From contig JAJHSB010000007.1 of the NCBI GenBank assembly GCA_022684035.1, positions 1 through 37,711 on the forward strand: a DNA stretch of 37,711 nt, given 5' to 3'. Shown here piece by piece: positions 5,026-25,498 of the stretch. The translations under genes and the position numbers were made by a program. This DNA comes from Candidatus Acetothermia bacterium (GTDB lineage: Bacteria; Bipolaricaulota; Bipolaricaulia; UBA7950). Positions within the stretch are counted from its first letter, which is position 1; every line of letters starts with the position of its first letter. A model generated the notes under the pieces. The model saw nothing but the letters and a program-made list of their open reading frames with translations. It ran no database searches and was not told the DNA's origin.

Positions 5026-5273
5026 TGAGCTTGCACAATATCAGTGATCGGCACATACTTCTTGCATCGCTCGATGATCGAGAAAAATTCATCATCCATT
5101 CCATCAGCAACAAAGACTTTAAAATAAGTTTTCCCCTCTTTTATTGTGTAATCACGTCGCACATTGGCCACACCATCGTAGGCGGTTATGATTCCATCAA
5201 TAAAATGTATCGCCTCTTTGTTTGTCTGTATCCAAAAAATCAATGCTTCGTTTGTATTATAGTGGGAGTTCAT
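5022..5273 (-). CDS. Small conserved protein, possible DUF4911-like
   Basis: An 83-residue soluble acidic protein with no signal peptide. It reads as alternating strands and helices, with 'IHFIDGIITAYDGVANVRRDYT' and 'TYFKVFVADGMDDEFFSIIERC'; this layout (a short chain about an 'ideology' of one beta-alpha-beta unit) resembles small DUF4911-type proteins, though I recognise it only weakly. It is placed 12 nt after mazG and overlaps the phosphatase gene by four bases, so it is almost certainly real and co-transcribed. Function unknown. Confidence 0.65.
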   Translation of the reverse strand: MNSHYNTNEALIFWIQTNKEAIHFIDGIITAYDGVANVRRDYTIKEGKTYFKVFVADGMDDEFFSIIERCKKYVPITDIVQAQ

Positions 5274-5285
5274 TCTCGGATGCTC

Positions 5286-5891
5286 TTAAGTCTTATGCGC
5301 TGACGGAAGAGAGTTCATGAGCTGGCTCAATTTTGCTATCACATTCCTTAAGGCAAGTTCAGGGTCTATGTCTGCATTGTGTGCTTCTTTAATTGCGTGC
5401 AAAATTATCAATCCGGCTCGTTGCTCTTCTGTTGCCCCAATCTCTAAATCGAGCTCAATCCCTAAATTGGCTGCTCGATCGAGTAATTTGCGGGCAGCTA
5501 ATAATGCCGGCATAGCATGAATAGACCGCTTCTCTTGCTGTTTTATCTTCTCCCAATTGGCTTTTACTGCTTTAAGCTCGCGGTTTCTATGCGCGAAAAC
5601 ATGCGGATGGCGACGGATCACTTTCTCTTTGAGATCGGCGAGTAGATCGTCGAGCGTAAACTCACCGTTTTCCGTCGCTATCTGGGCATGGAGAAGAATT
5701 TGCAGCAGCAGATCACCCAACTCACTTGCCAGGCCTTTCATATCTCCGGCATCGATTGCTGCTACTGCCTCATATGCCTCTTCAACTATATATGGTCTCA
5801 GAGATAGATGGTCTTGTCGGCGATCCCATGGACAGCCTGCTGGCGAACGCAGCTTTGCAATAAGGAAGGTCAATTCGTTGAATAGACTCAT
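5286..5891 (-). CDS. mazG: MazG nucleoside triphosphate pyrophosphohydrolase
   Basis: MazG hydrolyses NTPs and dNTPs to monophosphate and pyrophosphate, a housecleaning activity that also influences ppGpp-linked stress. The all-alpha catalytic domain is complete: 'GCPWDRRQDHLSLRPYIVEEAYE' with metal ligands Glu37/Glu38/Glu41, then 'ELGDLLLQ' with Glu57 and Asp60, and the conserved 'RRHPHVF'. At 201 residues it is shorter than the two-domain E. coli enzyme (263), and the second domain (from about 130) keeps no clear EExxE motif, so only one active site is evident. Its start overlaps the PPIase-TPR stop by four bases (ATGA), implying coupling. Confidence 0.93.
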   Translation of the reverse strand: MSLFNELTFLIAKLRSPAGCPWDRRQDHLSLRPYIVEEAYEAVAAIDAGDMKGLASELGDLLLQILLHAQIATENGEFTLDDLLADLKEKVIRRHPHVFAHRNRELKAVKANWEKIKQQEKRSIHAMPALLAARKLLDRAANLGIELDLEIGATEEQRAGLIILHAIKEAHNADIDPELALRNVIAKLSQLMNSLPSAHKT

Positions 5892-8545
5892 TCCCCACTA
5901 CCATGTTGGCCTTGTGACCCATCTGATGGCGGAGACTCTTCGACAGGCGGCGTGATCTGAGCGAGTAATCCTTGCACCTCTTCGACGCGGTGGGTAGGAT
6001 CATCAGCTTGGATCTTCTTCAGCAACTCCCGTGCTTGGTCGATATTCTCTCGCGCAATATGGATCTTTGCCATCTCCAACCGGGCATCTAATCCGGATCT
6101 TCCTAAGGGGCGATCACGCCCGACTTTAGCGCGCTCGATATCGATGATCTGCTGATATATCGAGAGTCTTTCGTCATCATCTTGAGTATGGGGAATGGCG
6201 CGCCACAGATATTCCTGCGCAATATCATGGTCTGCTCGCTGTAGATGCGCATTGGCAATTTCGCGCCACGCTGCAATCGATATTGGATCAAGCTCGAGAA
6301 TAGCGGCATAATGACGGATCGCTCCGCTCCACATAAAGTGATCTTCGTAGACCCGTGCCACTCTAAACCGCATCTGGACATCATCAGGGGCGAGTTCGAT
6401 AATCTGTCGTCCCAGCGCCAAACGGAGAGCAGCTTTATCCGGCTCTAATGTTATACTGCGGTAGATTGTCCGGTCAAAGCCGAGACGGAAGTTTACCAAC
6501 GCAGCCTCTTCATTGCCCTGCTGGAGGTGAATATTACCCAGGTAATAAAAAGCCTCACCAGTGAACGGCGCGCGGCGGATAATCTCTTCGAATATCGACT
6601 TTGCTCTTTCAATAGATCCGGCAGCAAGATGAGCTCGGCCCAGTCGCAGTTGAAGATCGAGCGACGGAGTTATCTGCATCACCTGCTGATAATAGTTGAT
6701 CGTCTTAGAGCTGTGATATCCGATCTCAGCTTGCAGTTTGCTGAGCCGTCTCTCTTCTTCAGCTGTAAGATCATCGCGTGCCTGTAATGTCTCAGCCTCG
6801 CTAGCGGCAATGCGTCGGCGCTCATAGGATAAATCCCCCATTCCGGTTAATGCGTGCGGATTGCGTGGGTCTTTCTGTAAGACTGCTGTCAGCGTTGCTG
6901 CTGCTTGATCGAGTTCTCCCACTCTTATATACGCCTGGCTGAGATTGACCAGTATCTGTATAGCACCGGGTTGCAGCTCCAGCGCTCGTTGAAAGTGTTC
7001 CACAGCAACGCGATAAAATCCTTGTGCGAATGCAATTTCACCCACAGCGATAACCGCCGGAAGAAAGGCTGGATCGATACTGATCGCTTCCCGGAACCGG
7101 CTGTCTGCTCCAAAGCGATCACCCTGTTCCTGGTGAAATCTTCCCAGATGGTAGATAGCAATAACGCTTTTGGGGTCAAGGCTGAGTATCCGCAGCAGAA
7201 ACCGTTCGTCAAGCTCGGCTCTTCCTTGTTGTAGTACTAACTCATAGTTGGCGACCGCAGTAGTGCGATAGTGTGCACTCTGTTCAATCAGTTCTGCCAA
7301 TCGTCTTTGTTCGGCAGGTGTCCGTTCCTCTTTCGCCTCCAGAGCGCCACGCTCGGTCAGCATTTCCCGCCACTTCGCTTCGTATATCTGCCCGATAAAG
7401 AAACCGAGATGAGGATCGTCGACTATTCTCTGATCTCTGATTCTCTTAAATTCCGCCAACCCAAGGAGGGGATCTTGTTGATACAATAGCTGTGCTGCGA
7501 CAAGTGGAAGCTTGATCTCCACAGTAGCAGCCTTCCGTAGTTCTTCTTCATACCAGTCTTCAAACCGTCTTTGTTCTTCTGTCGTAATAAAATCCGCTGT
7601 AACTCTTGTTCTTATCTCGTCTAACGCCGGTCGATGCGCTGGCCACCGACCAGTCAGTTTGATGATATGGTAGCCGAACCTGGTGCGGGTGATCTCACTT
7701 ATTCCCCCGACTTCTAAGCCGAAGGCCGCCACTTCAAATTCTCTGTCCATTCTACCCCGACCGAACCGGCCGAGGTCGCCGCCCTGAGCTGCCGAGGGAC
7801 AAGTAGAATATTCTCGTGCCAGCTCAGCAAATGGTGCTCCTGCTGCAAGCTTAGTCGATATCTCTTTTGCCAGCGCTTCATCAGCCACCAGAATATGCGA
7901 TGCCTGAACCTCTTCTGGTTGTTCATAGCGGGCAATATTCTCCGCAAAAAAGGCTTCCAGTTCAGCTTCAGTCGGAATGATCGTTCCCACTACTCTTCTA
8001 CGTAATTCTTCCTCTTGCAGCCGGCGCTGAATATGGTTCCGCATATTATCTTTGAACTCGTGCAAGGTCCGTCTATGTGCGGCAAGTAACTCACGCAGCC
8101 GCTCTTCTGTGAGGCGATGAACCCGTAATAGTTCATCGTATTCCCGCTGAAACTCTGCCTCGATCCTTCGACTATCGGGTCTGATCCGTTGCCGCGTGAT
8201 CTCTTGCCCAAGTAATGTATGGCGAATCACTCTTTCCATCGTCTGAGCACGCAATTGCAGTTGTAGTAATGCTCCGGTTACGCCTCGCAGTAATGGGGTG
8301 AACTCGCGTCCCATCCGCGCGTGGAACTGCTCGTGTTGGCGGATAAAAGCTGCATGATCTGCTTCAAAGTGCGCTATTTCGATCTTCTCTCTATTTACCA
8401 CTACCGCAATCCGGCCTATACCCATCTCGGCCTGGGCTGCTCCTGGTCGGCGCATAAAGGCGTAGAGCCCTATGCTGCTTACAATAAAAGCAATAACAAT
8501 ACCCCAGATGATCGCTATTTTAAAACGAATAAAGAATTGTTGCAT
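5888..8545 (-). CDS. Membrane-anchored parvulin-type peptidyl-prolyl isomerase fused to TPR repeats
   Basis: An 885-residue protein. Residues 8-30 form a single uncleaved membrane anchor, residues about 45-200 a SurA/PpiD-like N-terminal chaperone region rich in charged helices, and residues about 211-299 a parvulin (PpiC) rotamase domain with 'VQASHILV', 'GGDLGRFGRG' and 'FGYHIIKL'. From about 330 to 850 come many TPR units such as 'AIYHLGRFHQEQGDRFGADS'. The expected role is periplasmic folding or outer-membrane protein chaperoning at the inner membrane; the TPR tail suggests a scaffold. The start has AGGAGG four nt before the ATG. A promoter with a tandemly duplicated -10 box lies about 100 nt upstream. 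It is first in a tight run with mazG, the small gene and the phosphatase. Confidence 0.88.
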   Translation of the reverse strand: MQQFFIRFKIAIIWGIVIAFIVSSIGLYAFMRRPGAAQAEMGIGRIAVVVNREKIEIAHFEADHAAFIRQHEQFHARMGREFTPLLRGVTGALLQLQLRAQTMERVIRHTLLGQEITRQRIRPDSRRIEAEFQREYDELLRVHRLTEERLRELLAAHRRTLHEFKDNMRNHIQRRLQEEELRRRVVGTIIPTEAELEAFFAENIARYEQPEEVQASHILVADEALAKEISTKLAAGAPFAELAREYSTCPSAAQGGDLGRFGRGRMDREFEVAAFGLEVGGISEITRTRFGYHIIKLTGRWPAHRPALDEIRTRVTADFITTEEQRRFEDWYEEELRKAATVEIKLPLVAAQLLYQQDPLLGLAEFKRIRDQRIVDDPHLGFFIGQIYEAKWREMLTERGALEAKEERTPAEQRRLAELIEQSAHYRTTAVANYELVLQQGRAELDERFLLRILSLDPKSVIAIYHLGRFHQEQGDRFGADSRFREAISIDPAFLPAVIAVGEIAFAQGFYRVAVEHFQRALELQPGAIQILVNLSQAYIRVGELDQAAATLTAVLQKDPRNPHALTGMGDLSYERRRIAASEAETLQARDDLTAEEERRLSKLQAEIGYHSSKTINYYQQVMQITPSLDLQLRLGRAHLAAGSIERAKSIFEEIIRRAPFTGEAFYYLGNIHLQQGNEEAALVNFRLGFDRTIYRSITLEPDKAALRLALGRQIIELAPDDVQMRFRVARVYEDHFMWSGAIRHYAAILELDPISIAAWREIANAHLQRADHDIAQEYLWRAIPHTQDDDERLSIYQQIIDIERAKVGRDRPLGRSGLDARLEMAKIHIARENIDQARELLKKIQADDPTHRVEEVQGLLAQITPPVEESPPSDGSQGQHGSGE

Positions 8546-17497: not shown

Positions 17498-20400
17498 CTA
17501 AAAATTTGCGACAACAGAGAGTTCGCCAATTAGGCTGTGATAGAATCCCGGGGAGCCAGCGGTATTTCCGATCGCGTAAGCAGCAGCGAAGACGAGGCTC
17601 CAATTATCCGCGATTTGCCAGTTTAAGGCTGGCCGTAAGCTGGCAGTCAAGTCGATACCCGTGATCATCCGTTGTGCTTCGCTACGCAGTTCGATATACG
17701 CCGATAGATTACCAGCAATGTTATAACTCAGCGTATTGCTGATCGTATATGTTATCGTCGTCTCTTCATGGCGAGTAACCGCATGCAGGGTGGAAGAGAA
17801 GTCATTATTCAATCCATCTGCAAGTTCCCATGTCAGTCCAGTGGTCAGGGTATGAGTGATCGTTGCCCGTGTCTCGCCGCGAAAGGTAATCGAATTGGAA
17901 ATTCGGCTGATCGTCAGATAAGGAATAAGGAATGGTATTCCCTGGTAGTCGATGCGCCCGCTTAACCGGTCAATCTGCTGTTGCCGTTCTTCCCATACTC
18001 CCAGCAGTTCACGCCGTAGGGTAACCGCAGCACCCAGATTCCCTAATTCGGCACGGAGACTCCCTGCGACTGTGAGATCGTCTCTTTGACGATGATTCTT
18101 CCACATCAGCGTGACTGCAGGGAAGAGTCTTATGCCGCGTAGATCCACCCGACTGAAGCGGAAGTCGAGATTGGCGAGATGCTCTATTTGTAAATATTTA
18201 TCGACCAGCGAGCGACTTGCTGTCAGATCATAGCGAGAGGTCAAGGTCATCGTGGCGAAGCGCTGTGACCACGCGAGCGTAAGACCTCCATAATCACGCC
18301 CACTGAACCTGCCGGCAAAATAGGTTGTCGGTCGTGTCCAATTGATAATGAGCGAAAGATCTTCAGTTATCTGGTGGTGAATTTGCGCCGCTACTCTACT
18401 TGCACGGCGCATCTTTACTGGCTCAAAATCACCGGCAAATGAATCGCTCCAACTGAGCGAAAGGGCGAGAGTATCATGGAAGAATCGCTTGTCAATGCCG
18501 ATGGTATACGCGAATTTTGTTCGGTCAAAGCCAGTTCGATCTTTGGCATCATCGATCAAACTATGCGTAGCAGAAAGAGCGAGCTGCCCTCCGAAGTCCC
18601 ATGTCATTGCAAGTGTATGGCTAAGCAGAGTTTGTGGTACATCTCCAGCGGCATCGATCCGCTGGTAAGTATGAGTTGCAGTAAGTGAGATCCCGGGTGT
18701 AATGGCGTGTGTGCCGCTCAAAGTCCACCCTGTGCGATCATGACGATCGGCGCGGCCGATCGCCAAAAATTGCGGCGAAATCCGCTTAAAGGTGCCTGCA
18801 AGCTGAAATCCACCGAAGTCACGCTGGAAAGAGGCACTGATCAGCATTCCTCTGTCGCTGTGCTCAGCAGCTGGAATGTCAACAAAGCGGGTGATATCCC
18901 GACCATCAATCTTCGTAGTATAGCGGGTGAATTCCGTTTTCTGTTGACCATCGAACCGCCACAGCGAGAGATCGTAATCTGCAGTGGCGCGCGAACCGGC
19001 CCAGAGAATGCCGTCAGGAGTAATTGCGATTGCAGTGATAGCTGTTTGTGCAATCAGCGTATCGTCCCATGAAGAATAAAGACCGCGTTCGGTGCCGAAG
19101 AAGAGTTTGTCATCGCGAAAGGCAAAAGAATTTACTCGTTGTCCGGTGATAAGCCAGTCGATAAACTCGCCGTTTTCAAACCGACGCAAGCCACGAGTAC
19201 AGGCAACATAAAGGATCGATTCCACTAATCGTAAATCTGTGATTCTGTCTCCTGCTGTTCTATCGAGAGTAGTAAATACCTCCTCTGCTACCTCGAATCT
19301 GATCACTCCATTATCAGTGCCAAGATAGATCACTTCGCCATTACCGACAATCTCAAAGATCATATCGCTTCGCATCTGCGGATTATCTTCGGTGGTGTAA
19401 GTGACCCAGCTCGCTTGATCATCGATCTGCGCGATCGGAACGCGGGCCAGGCCGGCTGCCGTGCCTATCCATAGTATTCCTTCGATAAGCGCGAGGGAGT
19501 AGACCGTCTCGTCAGGGAGACCGTCTTCCTGAGAGTAACGACGCCAGTTTCCCACCCAATCGAGCGGAGCAACTCCCTTCAGGGAAACGACGGTCAATCC
19601 GGCGTTGGTGGCAAAGAAGACTTTATTGCCGGATCCGGCGATCGCATAGACCCGGCGGCCGGAGAGACCATGGAAAGTATCGTAACTACGCCAACTCCCA
19701 TCGTAATAGACGCTGATCCCTCCTAAATGGGAGAAGAAGAGGTACTCTCCGATACGTGCGATATCCGTTATCTCATTAGGCATATTGCGCCGTAGATTAT
19801 CATCAAACGGAAACCGATTCTCTGCCCAACCAACGGAAAAATCCGCCGCAAAGCCGGGACGGTCGATTCTCCCGGTGATGCCGGCGACAGTATGCATGTT
19901 CGGCATGGTATGAGCACGGTCTCTCTCCTCTGGGGGAAGAGGAGTGTCTGCTCCACGCAGCAAGCTAATGCCGATCGTAAACTCTTCACTTAACGGAAGG
20001 TTAAGCGTAATTCCGTAGAAGGTTCGCTGATGTTCGGCGAATCCGCCCCACCAGCCGCGAGCGCTTTCGAATTCCACGCGGATGATATCCTCTTCTCTCA
20101 CCTGACGGAAGATGATCAACAGACCGATTTCATAATCGATTGAATAGTCGATAGCGCGGGTAAGACGAGCATTATTAAGATAGACTCGTACGCTGTCAGG
20201 GATGAGCGCTAACCCCAACATGAACATATTGCCTAGGACGGCATAGTCAAAGGTAACGCGTACTGCATGCTTCTCTCCACGGAGAAAATCCGGTGGGAAG
20301 TGTAACTCGATGATCCCTTGATCAGGGAAGAGAGTGAATCGGTAGAGGACGCCGTCGATAGGGTGGAAAATCCGGTTATCAAAACTGATCTCCACGACCA

Positions 20401-21451
20401 CGGAATCCGTGATAATCCCTCTTCGCCCCAGATCGTAAAATCGTTGTCGCCTCGCATCGGTCAATCGATGGACGGCATTGTCGATGATGATCTGTCCATA
20501 GGCGGCAAGTGCAGACAGAAAGGCTAATTCGTAGTCAGACCCTTCATGCCAGGGATAAATTCTGCGCGCCTCATCGACGAGTCCGTGTTTGGTATTATAA
20601 GTATCGATATAATTGTGAATTCTTCGGCGTAACAGACCGTTTATCCCCTGGCGCAATAACAGATAATCGGATTCACTACGCAAGATGATGAACTCTTCCT
20701 TTTCCAACTCAGTCTGCAATTCTGCTTCGATTACCGATAGCAGATATTCCAAATTGTGGTCGATCAGTAGAGCGCGTAAAGAAGGGACGAGTTCAAATTG
20801 CACATAACTGCGGGAAAAATCATCGATAAACGGCACAGTGAGAATGAGATAATCGAGACCAGCAAGATGGCGGCGATAAGGCGGCGCTTCCCACGGTCGA
20901 GCAGGAATTTGCCGGGCAAAGACGACCTCCGCCCGACTCGTCATACCGCGGAAAATCCTCTGCTGGGGAATTCCCAGCATTCGTCCCACCACAGCGTGGA
21001 GCGTCCCTTTTTCATGGCGGTATTTCACTTGCAATCCCAACAATGCTGGGGAAGCAACGAATGCTCCCTCGCCGGCAAAGATAAACTCGCCCAACAGACC
21101 CTGCACTCTCTCTGTGTCGAGACTGATCGTAAATTCCTGCATCTGCAGAGGTCTTTGATCATCGATCTGTGCTGCGATCGTCAGCACTCCGAATGCAGTA
21201 CCGCTGATATCAGCCGCTAATGACTGATCAAAGATAAATTGCCCCGGCGCAGTGCCGAATCTTCCTAACCCACGCAGATCTCCGATTCCATAACGCAGCG
21301 TCCACGTCTTCTGGCCAGAGATATTGATTTGGAATCGCTCATCATTTTGGGCGAATACCGGATGAGCAATTACAATAATCATAATAACTGTTATAGCTAC
21401 CAGTAACGAACGGTATCCGCTATATTTAACTTCTCTTTGATCGGTTCTCAT
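17498..21451 (-). CDS. Large outer-membrane beta-barrel protein with internal beta-propeller
   Basis: A 1317-residue protein I do not recognise as a named family. It has a signal peptide (1-34, cleavage after 'HPVFA'). An N-terminal beta-rich part contains helices around 215-320 and strand pairs such as 'VYLNNARLTRAIDYSIDYEIGLLIIFR', like the 'surface-exposed strand' modules of SprA-type proteins. Residues about 550-835 form repeats 'GRRVYAIAGSGNKVFFATNAGLTVV' in style, matching two-component-regulator propeller blades. Residues about 850-1317 are amphipathic strands ('ATITHTLTTGLTWEL') ending in Phe, as expected for a BamA-inserted barrel. The start is set by AAGGAG eight nt before the ATG; an ATG at 21469 lies upstream of the Shine-Dalgarno. 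It is divergent from the LptF/G-LptD fusion. Role unknown: export, adhesion or sensing are all possible. Confidence 0.8.
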   Translation of the reverse strand: MRTDQREVKYSGYRSLLVAITVIMIIVIAHPVFAQNDERFQINISGQKTWTLRYGIGDLRGLGRFGTAPGQFIFDQSLAADISGTAFGVLTIAAQIDDQRPLQMQEFTISLDTERVQGLLGEFIFAGEGAFVASPALLGLQVKYRHEKGTLHAVVGRMLGIPQQRIFRGMTSRAEVVFARQIPARPWEAPPYRRHLAGLDYLILTVPFIDDFSRSYVQFELVPSLRALLIDHNLEYLLSVIEAELQTELEKEEFIILRSESDYLLLRQGINGLLRRRIHNYIDTYNTKHGLVDEARRIYPWHEGSDYELAFLSALAAYGQIIIDNAVHRLTDARRQRFYDLGRRGIITDSVVVEISFDNRIFHPIDGVLYRFTLFPDQGIIELHFPPDFLRGEKHAVRVTFDYAVLGNMFMLGLALIPDSVRVYLNNARLTRAIDYSIDYEIGLLIIFRQVREEDIIRVEFESARGWWGGFAEHQRTFYGITLNLPLSEEFTIGISLLRGADTPLPPEERDRAHTMPNMHTVAGITGRIDRPGFAADFSVGWAENRFPFDDNLRRNMPNEITDIARIGEYLFFSHLGGISVYYDGSWRSYDTFHGLSGRRVYAIAGSGNKVFFATNAGLTVVSLKGVAPLDWVGNWRRYSQEDGLPDETVYSLALIEGILWIGTAAGLARVPIAQIDDQASWVTYTTEDNPQMRSDMIFEIVGNGEVIYLGTDNGVIRFEVAEEVFTTLDRTAGDRITDLRLVESILYVACTRGLRRFENGEFIDWLITGQRVNSFAFRDDKLFFGTERGLYSSWDDTLIAQTAITAIAITPDGILWAGSRATADYDLSLWRFDGQQKTEFTRYTTKIDGRDITRFVDIPAAEHSDRGMLISASFQRDFGGFQLAGTFKRISPQFLAIGRADRHDRTGWTLSGTHAITPGISLTATHTYQRIDAAGDVPQTLLSHTLAMTWDFGGQLALSATHSLIDDAKDRTGFDRTKFAYTIGIDKRFFHDTLALSLSWSDSFAGDFEPVKMRRASRVAAQIHHQITEDLSLIINWTRPTTYFAGRFSGRDYGGLTLAWSQRFATMTLTSRYDLTASRSLVDKYLQIEHLANLDFRFSRVDLRGIRLFPAVTLMWKNHRQRDDLTVAGSLRAELGNLGAAVTLRRELLGVWEERQQQIDRLSGRIDYQGIPFLIPYLTISRISNSITFRGETRATITHTLTTGLTWELADGLNNDFSSTLHAVTRHEETTITYTISNTLSYNIAGNLSAYIELRSEAQRMITGIDLTASLRPALNWQIADNWSLVFAAAYAIGNTAGSPGFYHSLIGELSVVANF

Positions 21452-21742
21452 CTTATCGCTCCTTACCATTTGTCATCCGGCATAATTTGATTTTATTTAA
21501 TATTAGCACATCAAGCAAATTATAACCGAAATTACATCCCATAATCTTCGCTTCACTTTAGGAGATGTTCCATGAAGTTCCTTCTTATGGGGTTTGGATA
21601 TTTAAAGGCAATGGCGCTGCATACCTTCTTTTTATAGTCAACGGCATAAATCATTGCAAAAAACTAACAACACGCAAATCCTAAATTCTAAAACCTAAAT
21701 CCCAAACCCCTGCCTTCGCAGGGGCAGGCAAAATCCAAATGA

Positions 21743-22130: not shown

Positions 22131-22297
22131 GTTGCTTAATCCTACAGAGTTTGTCCTACACCTAACCGAGCATTATCTCCTGCGGCATATGTTCTTACCC
22201 GCTGCCTGCTGAATACTGAATGCTATCTGCCGTGCCCCTATAATTTCGCAACTGTCTTACAGCCTTACGAACTTGAAGAACTTTTTCTTCTGTGTCC

Positions 22298-22336: not shown

Positions 22337-25300
22337 ATGATGAAAAAACTGGATAGATACTTGTTACAAGAGTTAGCTGGTCCATTTTTTCTCGCGGTGA
22401 TGGGGCTAGCAATCTTCTTGGTACTAAATTTGATCATCGCTCTATCAGGATTGATGGCTGGGCACGGTGTGGGAGTCCTCGCAATGGCGAGATTGATTCT
22501 CCGGCGCCTTCCTGATCTGATGGTCGTTGCCTTTCCAATGGCGCTTCTCTTTGCTATCTTTCTCGGATTAGGACGACTGGTCCATGATCGCGAGGTAATG
22601 GGCATGGAAGCAGGCGGGATATCCCGCCGTCGATTCCTGGCTCCATTATTCCTTGCCGGGTTAATAGTCGCCATTGGTAATTTCTTCTTCCATAACTGGG
22701 TCGCGCCGCATGCCGAACATGCATATCAGATGGAAATTCGCCGGATTATCTTTCGTGGACGTCTCCCACATATTCGTGCCCATACTTTCTTTACCGGTCC
22801 AGGAGAGACATTTTTCTATGGGCGAAGTTTCGATGAACGTGATGGCACGCTTTCAGGAATTCTTATCCATGACATGGGTGGAGATCTCGTGCCCCGGAAA
22901 GGCGATGCGACGATGATGGTTGTCACAGCAGAAACAGGCCGTTGGATAGATGACACCTGGATCCTCTTCGATGGGGTTATCTTTGGCTATGATCGCCAGG
23001 GAAGGCTCGTTTATACAGCGAGGTTTGCTTCCATCGAAATTGCCACCGGCCTTGCAAGCGCTGATTTTGTCCTCGGAGCGAAATCACCATCGGAGATGAG
23101 GTTGGAAGAGCTATTGGCACGGATCGAAATACTCCGCCGCGCCGGGCTTGATATCACCAGGCTGCGGGTGGAATTACACTCTCGTTTTGCCATTCCGCTT
23201 ACGGCATTAATCTTCGCTCTGATCGGTGGCCCGCTCTGTCTTATCTTCAGTAAGCGCAGTCGCGCAATGGGAGTGGTGATCAGTCTCCTCCTCGTCGGAT
23301 TCTTCCAGGGGACTCTTCTGTGGGCGGAGACAATGGGAAGGGGCGGAGTAATCTCTCCTGCTATTGCAGGGTGGGGTCCGAATCTGCTTTTCGGACTTAT
23401 CGGTCTCTACCTCTATCTGCGGCTGGATAGTCTCAGTCACCCCATTCGGTGGCGCGGGTTCCAGCACAAGTTGCTGTTAGGATTATTCATCGTTACTTTA
23501 TCCAGTTCCTTCCTTGCTGTAGCCGGCGAGCCTGTGATAGAGATCACTGCTGATCGGTTGACAGTGGCAGCAGAAAAAGAAGCGATCCACGCCCAAGGCG
23601 CAGTGACGGTAAAGTATGGTAATACGATCTTGCACGCCGATGAAGTAAGACTCAATCGCATCGATGGTGCGCGATGGAAATTTCAAGCTCAGGGAGCGGT
23701 CGATCTACAGATCGGTGAAGACTTCAAGTTACAGAGTGATCAGTTATTTGCCTTTCTCCGCGCCAAAGACGAAGAGCTCATTACTACGGCCGCAGAAGCA
23801 GAGCAACTCCGCGGTCAAACGATCTTTACAAATGCGCAAGGAGAAGAGCATATACTCAATTTCACCGGTCATCACGCCCTGATCAGATTCGACAACGCCG
23901 GGGAAGTGGAAGCAATAGAACTGACTCGCGGTACCGCCACTACTTGCGATAAGTGTATGGTCCCGATCAGAGATCAACCGTTCGCAATTGACATGGGAAG
24001 AATGATCATCTATCCTGATCGGCTTATCGTCGCCTTTGACATAACTGTTCGCGCATTCGGCCTGCCTATCTTCTGGCTGCCGGCGTATATTAGACCTCTT
24101 GATGAAATATTAGAGAGCCCGCTTTTCCCCGCTACTGGAACACATCCATTGCGTGGCTGGTTCCTTAAGTGGAATCTTCCGTTCTTTATCGATCAATTTA
24201 ATCACGGAACGATTCTCATCGATTTTTACTCTCGCTTCACCGAGATCGGAGCAGGGGCAATATTCCATTATCAGTTTTTCGGACAACGCGGAAGAATTAG
24301 ATTTTATCATTTTCCCGCTCGCGTCGGAGATGCCCGCACAGAGATCTCGATCGACAATATCTGGACGATCGTCCCGGAATTTGAGCTGGCAAAACGCGCT
24401 GATTTTACCCAGATAGGAGCTCAACGTCATCTCACTTTCGCTGTATTGACTGCAACCACTTTCCATGATTGGCGGATCGATCTGCGCAGCGAACGGACTG
24501 AAAAAGAGGAGGACGGGGTCATCAAGATAATCGAGCGCATCCCGGAAATTACCATTGCACGTACTGCCTTCACTCTCCTCCCAATTACAATTACCCCAGG
24601 TGCAAGCATAGGCCGGTTTCGCGAACTGCGCGGTATCGAAGAGATCGGGTCCGGACTGCGCGCCGACGGCAGTCTTAGTTTCCATTTGCCATCGGTCTTG
24701 CTCTGGTCCTCGCCAGGGCAAGATATCTCCTTTACCAGCACAGCAGGAGTCCGGATCTCATACTATTACGCAGATGATTTGATCTTCTCTCGCGAAGTAG
24801 TCGACCTATCGGCCAACCTCACCTACAGACAAAGTGGAATCAGAAGTGAAATTACGCATCGTTACCGCCGCGTTGTGGGAAGAAGTCCATTTGAGTTTGA
24901 TCGTATAGACAAAAGACACCATATCACCGCCAATTTGCGGATCGGAATGGAGAGTCCTCTGCAGCTAACGATTGCTGGAGGATATAATCTGGGCATCGGG
25001 CAGATCGATCCGCTATCTTTCAATATTAATTATCGCTTTGGCGCGGGATCAGTGACCTTGAAAGGAGTATACAACATACCATTTGCGCGACTCGACCGGT
25101 TGACTTTGACCGGCGATTGGCGGCGGGAGAAGGTGCATCTATCGTTTACTGTTCCGTATAATGTTGCGCGGGGAATCTTCGATACCAGTTTATTGCGGTT
25201 TGCCACCGGTAATGAGAGCGGAGAAATATCACTCTCCTTGAAATATGATCTGAATACCATGCATCTTATCTCAACGACCCTCAGCACCGAACTAATTTGG

Positions 25301-25498
25301 GAAGCGCAATGGGGAGTTGCGCTCGGTTTTACTTACCACGTAGACGGATCCCTCACCGGAGTAACCGCCCGCTTATTCCGTGAATTTTATGATTGCATGC
25401 GGATTGGAGTTGAATATCGAGCAGGACAATTCTTGTTTTACGTCTCTATTCTCGCCTTTCCTGAAGCAGTTTTGCGTTACGCTCCGCCAATACGATAG
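22337..25498 (+). CDS. Fusion: LptF/LptG-type inner-membrane permease - internal signal peptide - OstA/LptD outer-membrane LPS assembly protein
   Basis: One uninterrupted 1053-residue frame. Residues 1-about 370 are a complete YjgP/YjgQ (LptF/G) permease: 'KLDRYLLQELAGPFFLAV' start, three helices, a periplasmic domain (about 100-280) and three more helices ending 'LIGLYLYLRL'. A basic tail and a hydrophobic stretch 'KLLLGLFIVTLSSSFLAVA' (378-396) follow, ending in AVA before Gly397: a textbook signal peptide with cleavage site. Residues 397-about 520 are OstA/LptA-like ('ITADRLTVAAEKEAIHAQGA'). The rest is LptD-like, with 'TTCDKC' and 'VRAFGLPIFWLPAYIRP', then barrel strands. LptF/G bring lipopolysaccharide out of the inner membrane; LptD inserts it in the outer membrane. 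I see no internal Shine-Dalgarno or ATG at the junction. The start is the ATG pair fitting LptF/G; an ATG at 22292 is upstream of the predicted transcript start. Confidence 0.88.
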   Translation: MMKKLDRYLLQELAGPFFLAVMGLAIFLVLNLIIALSGLMAGHGVGVLAMARLILRRLPDLMVVAFPMALLFAIFLGLGRLVHDREVMGMEAGGISRRRFLAPLFLAGLIVAIGNFFFHNWVAPHAEHAYQMEIRRIIFRGRLPHIRAHTFFTGPGETFFYGRSFDERDGTLSGILIHDMGGDLVPRKGDATMMVVTAETGRWIDDTWILFDGVIFGYDRQGRLVYTARFASIEIATGLASADFVLGAKSPSEMRLEELLARIEILRRAGLDITRLRVELHSRFAIPLTALIFALIGGPLCLIFSKRSRAMGVVISLLLVGFFQGTLLWAETMGRGGVISPAIAGWGPNLLFGLIGLYLYLRLDSLSHPIRWRGFQHKLLLGLFIVTLSSSFLAVAGEPVIEITADRLTVAAEKEAIHAQGAVTVKYGNTILHADEVRLNRIDGARWKFQAQGAVDLQIGEDFKLQSDQLFAFLRAKDEELITTAAEAEQLRGQTIFTNAQGEEHILNFTGHHALIRFDNAGEVEAIELTRGTATTCDKCMVPIRDQPFAIDMGRMIIYPDRLIVAFDITVRAFGLPIFWLPAYIRPLDEILESPLFPATGTHPLRGWFLKWNLPFFIDQFNHGTILIDFYSRFTEIGAGAIFHYQFFGQRGRIRFYHFPARVGDARTEISIDNIWTIVPEFELAKRADFTQIGAQRHLTFAVLTATTFHDWRIDLRSERTEKEEDGVIKIIERIPEITIARTAFTLLPITITPGASIGRFRELRGIEEIGSGLRADGSLSFHLPSVLLWSSPGQDISFTSTAGVRISYYYADDLIFSREVVDLSANLTYRQSGIRSEITHRYRRVVGRSPFEFDRIDKRHHITANLRIGMESPLQLTIAGGYNLGIGQIDPLSFNINYRFGAGSVTLKGVYNIPFARLDRLTLTGDWRREKVHLSFTVPYNVARGIFDTSLLRFATGNESGEISLSLKYDLNTMHLISTTLSTELIWEAQWGVALGFTYHVDGSLTGVTARLFREFYDCMRIGVEYRAGQFLFYVSILAFPEAVLRYAPPIR

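Follow-up and report, generated by a model that had tools for sequence, protein, structure and literature searches.

How can a permease of the inner membrane and a barrel of the outer membrane be made as one polypeptide? The question is raised by a gene on a stretch of 37,711 nucleotides (hereafter, the window) from Candidatus Acetothermia bacterium, a member of the Bipolaricaulota (GenBank assembly GCA_022684035.1, contig JAJHSB010000007.1, positions 1 to 37,711 of the forward strand). A single frame on the plus strand, from an ATG at 22337 to a stop at 25498, encodes a product of 1053 amino acids in which a permease of the LptF/LptG family is followed by a half resembling LptD, the outer-membrane component of the lipopolysaccharide transport (Lpt) machine. 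A reading of the letters alone (the original prediction) had described a permease, a basic linker, a signal-peptide-like segment ending in AVA at residue 396, an OstA domain and an LptD-like barrel, and this order was confirmed using Pfam, AlphaFold2 and Foldseek. The interpretation built on it is supported in part: the layout and the idea of one product giving two proteins stand, while an uncut link between the membranes, its second option, is disfavoured. We consider it likely, with a probability of about 0.83, that the gene encodes a precursor polyprotein which is cut by signal peptidase I and provides the two ends of an Lpt machine that has a single permease and carries a lipid other than lipopolysaccharide (LPS).

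The permease half

Residues 1-365 (22337..23431) make up the permease, with six helices and a periplasmic beta domain. Residues 7-362 match the Pfam family LptF_LptG (PF03739) along the whole model (positions 1-353 of 353; E = 1e-81; 275 bits against a cut-off of 27.9), and a profile search of the window's own genome (1.56 Mb, 92.6% complete) located the match at 22355-23422 (E = 3.7e-83) as the sole one in that genome. The NCBIfam equivalog models for LptF and LptG scored 166 and 161 bits, both below their cut-offs of 230 and 240; judged by sequence, the permease is a member of the family that is neither LptF nor LptG proper. The single LptF/LptG match in the genome suggests that the permease would act as a homodimer.

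The full-length AlphaFold model, with a predicted local distance difference test score (pLDDT) of 83.3 and a predicted template modelling score (pTM) of 0.52, contains six long helices and an additional helix at residues 369-386. Its pLDDT falls below 50 only at residues 140-146, at 239-247 and at the junction (378-399), the last of these lying between two folded bodies. The original prediction had counted six helices, an even number that would return the chain to the cytoplasm, and we judge this to be right. Many residues of both the permease and the LptD half are invariant in alignments of relatives. The open frame also offers an alternative GTG start at 22292.

The LptD-like half

The OstA/LptD_N domain spans residues 402-527 (23540..23917), where strands are present in the models and where the match to LptD_N (PF03968) is marginal (E = 2.9e-4; 21.5 bits against a cut-off of 20.4). 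The own-genome search with PF03968 gave one match (E = 1.0e-5), inside the fused gene. Of seven fused relatives scanned, one matched LptD_N, below cut-off (E = 0.0023), and one split relative gave a weak PF04453 match that was also below cut-off (E = 0.004).

A model of residues 397-1053, generated by AlphaFold2 with 28 relatives, reached a pLDDT of 89.5 and a pTM of 0.68 and consists of an OstA-like part and a large barrel of the LptD type (residues about 599-1048; 24131..25480). When this model was compared to the PDB by Foldseek, ranks 1-38 were all LptD entries, with a best E value of 3.6e-23; in this count 4q35, 4n4r and chain F of 9p1u are what we take to be LptD, as the titles do not name LptD for that chain. 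The C-terminal half is LptD-like by predicted fold. For the assignment of residues 397-1053 to LptD in the original prediction, structure modelling thus produced the expected OstA-like part and barrel with matches to the LptD fold, and the domain search returned a marginal OstA domain and no Pfam barrel model.

Two cysteines, C537 in a TTCDxC motif (TC-x-x-C, C537 to C540; 23945..23956) and C1020 near the C-terminus (25394..25396), are invariant in alignments A1 and A3. The TC pair was printed for 24 of 33 relatives from both phyla in which the fusion occurs (see below), the other nine having been missed by the search pattern, and a cysteine lies in the C-terminal strand of all 33 printed tails (24 from Bipolaricaulota and nine from Thermotogota), a count that left out loci L140 and L146, which gave no hit. 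Four of the Thermotogota LptD halves contain just two cysteines. We assume that C537 and C1020 correspond to the cysteines of the Escherichia coli LptD disulfide; by their positions, they are candidates for an inter-domain disulfide. A group of larger fusions (L079-L085) carries a second OstA-like segment ahead of LptD, which is perhaps an LptA part; such a segment occurs in members of five families (f3, f5, f7, f8 and f9).

Distribution of the fusion

The fusion is the usual state in Bipolaricaulota and Thermotogota, not a single oddity. The nearest relative of the protein, 81% identical, comes from an Acetothermia metagenome-assembled genome, and matches to the protein exist in 35 of 40 genomes (the window's own and 39 relatives), in 30 of these within a frame of at least 968 amino acids. 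With a frame of at least 860 amino acids as a proxy for the fusion, the permease was above cut-off in 90 of 100 Bipolaricaulota genomes, the own genome included, and lay in such a frame in 77 of the 90; the corresponding figures for Thermotogota, sampled as 91 genomes drawn from a larger group, were 90 of 91 and 83 of 90. A profile identified the LptD half in the Bipolaricaulota loci fetched and in 40 of 41 Thermotogota frames, a partly non-independent check in which four genomes occur twice and eight rows had trained the profile. In a permease tree built by a quick method, a branch sets the permeases of the two phyla together apart from 28 rows that represent 16 genomes of other phyla (Shimodaira-Hasegawa-like approximate likelihood ratio test support, 99). 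The search for proteins combining LptF/LptG with LptD that the original prediction had proposed therefore found the fusion in two phyla.

An assembly artefact or frameshift, named by the original prediction as its possible undoing, was rejected: the fused frame recurs in many related genomes, including 23 single-contig assemblies with permease frames of at least 985 amino acids, two from Bipolaricaulota (G036 and G038) and 21 from Thermotogota. The gene neighbours in one genome of the second phylum, G220, match PDB entries 1sum and 1yt5 at full length, which are presumably Thermotoga maritima proteins, in keeping with the assignment of this phylum to Thermotogota.

Outside the Bipolaricaulota, 76 of 88 genomes had a permease match and, among the matches listed, a single genome, G148, belongs to Thermotogota and is fused. 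When 30 of those genomes were searched again, the matches over cut-off lay in frames of 127-587 amino acids, and among 17 loci with long frames or a lone permease gene an LptD-half hit was obtained in G148 only. Fusions in further phyla may nevertheless exist. Five genomes of other phyla (G132, G175, G181, G183 and G185; L094-L098) carry a different arrangement, an LptF-LptG tandem fusion in one open frame.

Exceptions were few in both phyla. In Bipolaricaulota the permease had no match over cut-off in 10 of 100 genomes, and 13 of 90 frames were shorter than 860 amino acids: three are splits (G028, G080 and G081), four are cut at contig ends with LptD already begun (G005, G011, G041 and G044) and six are fragments (G026, G065, G072, G073, G074 and G076). 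Seven of 90 Thermotogota frames were short, namely G275, G263, G148, G276, G267, G273 and G277, of which G276 and G267 are cut at a contig or locus end and G273 and G277 are fragments. In G148 an in-frame stop (L092:2781-2783) lies within the LptD barrel and the next open stretch is in the same frame. G263 (L148), nested among fused Thermotogota in the tree, has two adjacent LptF/G-like genes, and the LptD half was not found in the stretch fetched.

The junction and its proposed cleavage

At the junction, transmembrane helix (TM) 6 is followed by a basic stretch and then by a hydrophobic core with small residues at its end. The basic linker (residues 365-377; 23429..23467) would be the n-region of a signal peptide, and the core (residues 378-396; 23468..23524) is followed by a predicted signal peptidase I site between AVA and GE. 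Over 27 Bipolaricaulota homologues, the window included, the core has a mean pairwise identity of 0.27 compared with 0.46-0.68 for TM1-6; helix limits were drawn by eye, and TM6 does not reach a simple hydropathy threshold of 1.6. At the predicted -1 position, which aligns with residue 396, 26 of these 27 have A, G or S. At the predicted -3 position all 27 have A, V, S, C, G or L, and in 19 the residue belongs to the set A, V, S, T and C. All 81 distinct junctions from both phyla satisfy a loose signal-peptide test, with a mean core hydropathy of 2.76 and an n-region charge that averages +2.3 and ranges from 0 to 5.

A chance hydrophobic segment or a seventh helix was rejected as an explanation of the core, which is less conserved than all six helices, yet hydrophobic and with a small residue at -1. 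The internal signal-peptide-like segment of the original prediction is upheld, with n-, h- and c-regions present and with A, G or S, in all but one of 27 homologues, at the very residue it had named as -1. From these sequence features we infer that signal peptidase I would cut after residue 396.

Alternatively, the protein could stay uncut and covalently link the inner-membrane permease to the outer-membrane barrel, as the original prediction had also suggested. The open frame does run without a stop in most genomes of two phyla, and the second OstA segment of some families would lengthen such a link. However, the hydrophobic segment and the OstA domain are no more than about five residues apart, so that one OstA domain would have to span the periplasm; the domain measures roughly 5 nm, and envelope widths make such a span unlikely. 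The segment is, moreover, the least conserved hydrophobic stretch and keeps a small residue at -1, and in split genes it is replaced by signal-peptide-like N-termini. We hold an uncut link to be very unlikely.

Separation by an internal translation start or by another protease seems just as improbable. A methionine occurs within the junction stretch in 10 of 30 rows; the other 20 have none there, and a start within the core would truncate the signal peptide. The junction in the window lacks a methionine, offering near the core no in-frame codons of interest other than TTG 379 and CTG 380, and an internal start was rejected on this ground.

Natural splits of the gene

Both halves were found as separate genes in four genomes (G028, G275, G080 and G081), and in all four LptD has a signal-peptide-like N-terminus, which sits at the place of the internal segment of the fusions. 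In the single-contig genome G028 the permease ends in the vestige RRAVPFLGGLAAG, and LptD lies about 1.08 Mb further along the same contig, its likely start opening a signal-peptide-like stretch. In G275, which is nested among fused Thermotogota in the tree, the permease stop is followed four bases on by an ATG and then by LptD, with its signal-peptide-like N-terminus; G275 is a draft genome, in which a sequencing indel could conceivably be the source of this split. From the tree, G028 and G275 are most simply read as fissions of a fused ancestor. In G080 and G081 the permease and LptD genes are adjacent, with stop and GTG start two bases apart, an arrangement that may have arisen in either direction. 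Split relatives of this kind had been proposed as a check by the original prediction, and its idea that one product gives a permease and an LptD, which we judge to be right, is strengthened by them.

The remaining components and the cargo

The other parts of an Lpt machine are encoded elsewhere. LptB was above cut-off in 15 of 16 genomes, the exception being G002, which is also without permease and LptD; in the own genome it scored 317 bits against a cut-off of 240 (contig 40, 5955-6701). Directly before it on the same contig, at about 5167-5955, is an LptC-family protein (PF06835, E = 1.7e-13). Omp85 was present in 17 of 17 genomes and signal peptidase I in 15 of 16, the own genome included. 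As for a separate LptA, PF03968, the only LptA model used, matched nothing but the fusion in the own genome (92.6% complete).

In G081, genes for an LptC-like protein, LptB, the permease and LptD stand in a row on one strand (L076, 3788-9588). The first protein of this row has sub-threshold OstA_2/LptC matches, and the row is a candidate operon for the machine.

A search for LpxC gave no match in any of 40 genomes, the own genome included, whereas 4 of the 14 genomes used as controls have it. Ordinary LPS is therefore an unlikely cargo, and we infer that a glycolipid which is not lipid A-based LPS is probably carried. In agreement, Bipolaricaulis Ran1 is described as being without LPS genes (PMC6092417) and Thermotogae as seemingly without them (PMC5007114).

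Four genomes of one genus, all in the same order as the window (G002, G003, G015 and G023), yielded neither the permease nor the LptD half. Omp85 is kept in G002 and G003, and LptB has no match over cut-off in G002, the sole one of the four tested. The four genomes thus seem to have lost the Lpt machine, and G002 and G003 still carry a marker of the outer membrane.

Could the machine have ceased to export lipids, the fusion being a relic with another role? The absence of LpxC matches from all 40 genomes would fit, as would the genus just described, in which the machine seems dispensable because permease and LptD are gone while Omp85 is kept in two of the four genomes. The many invariant residues in both halves and the retention of LptB and LptC argue against a relic, and in G002 LptB is missing together with the fusion. 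Other diderms without LPS retain Lpt, and a glycolipid cargo has been proposed for them (PMC10353723). We find a relic scarcely credible.

A proposed route from one precursor to two membranes

In the route that we favour, the first approximately 365 residues would insert into the inner membrane as an LptF/LptG permease, presumably a homodimer driven by LptB and helped by the LptC-like protein encoded elsewhere. With an even number of helices the chain would be back in the cytoplasm, and residues 365-396 could then serve as an internal Sec signal peptide. The cut after residue 396 would release a mature LptD of 657 residues, which would form its inter-domain disulfide and which BamA would insert into the outer membrane. 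A single round of translation would thereby yield both ends of the bridge in equal numbers.

Several points weigh against this route. Cleavage is deduced from features of the junction; the site test was loose, and in six of the 81 junctions the n-region is without net charge. The core's identity of 0.27 is near that of the barrel (0.30) and the OstA domain (0.35), and fast evolution of the core is not diagnostic on its own because these regions diverge nearly as much. Signal peptidase I was not found in G081 (85% complete), though LptD is a separate gene there. Pfam barrel models, including PF04453, match neither the protein nor any of the seven fused relatives, and with the marginal LptD_N match this leaves the identification of LptD resting on the fold, where the comparison with known LptD by Foldseek gave modest TM-scores on the query (0.29-0.53). 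The profile for the LptD half found no match in one Thermotogota frame, L146. The search for lipid A synthesis was limited to LpxC, other lpx genes not having been searched for.

A fixed 1:1 ratio of permease to LptD, together with a homodimeric permease, might give a two-fold symmetric exporter with two LptD gates per LptB2 engine, a speculative extension that we regard as rather unlikely. If true, it would contrast with E. coli, where each LptB2FG has one bridge, and a nascent polyprotein would build a trans-envelope machine.

Relation to known systems

The system shares with the E. coli LptB2FG-C/LptA/LptDE machine a permease of the LptF/LptG family, LptC, LptB, an OstA domain, an LptD-type barrel and cysteines in both LptD domains. 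It differs in having one permease gene where E. coli has two, in carrying permease and LptD in one polypeptide, in that PF03968 brought up no separate LptA when the own genome was searched and in that LpxC was not found. A precedent for the proposed processing is the cytochrome b/c1 precursor of Bradyrhizobium (fbcH), in which a membrane protein and an exported protein are joined through an internal signal peptide and cut by signal peptidase; both of its products remain at the inner membrane, whereas here one would go to the outer membrane.

Borrelia is similar in having an Lpt machine without lipid A, for which a glycolipid cargo is proposed, but has separate genes for LptA, LptC, LptD, LptF and LptG (PMC10353723). 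The Lpt cluster of diderm Firmicutes likewise has a single LptF/G homologue; unlike here, LPS is made and a clear LptD/E homologue was not found (PMC5007114). One published statement points the opposite way, PMC8871954 confining lptD to (most) true diderms with LPS. Lpt orthologues of Thermotoga maritima are listed by Putker et al. 2015, according to a passage in PMC10353723.

No description of the fusion was found in the literature searched, which was mostly open-access, and Putker et al. 2015 may mention it; the original prediction's remark that it knew of no described case agrees with this search. With this finding Thermotogota and Bipolaricaulota gain an LptD, and with it a lipid export bridge that is nearly complete. 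If it holds, the earlier published view will need revision for Thermotogota, and the fusion would be a shared marker of both phyla for the debate on the origin of bacterial envelopes. A precursor that supplies two membranes would, in addition, be a rarity, and one that is testable in cultured Thermotoga.

Another gene in the window

On the minus strand, at 17498-21469, the window encodes a 1323-amino-acid protein. It has a weak SprA-like stretch (E = 3.4e-9, far below cut-off), propeller-like repeats and a weak porin-like C-terminus.

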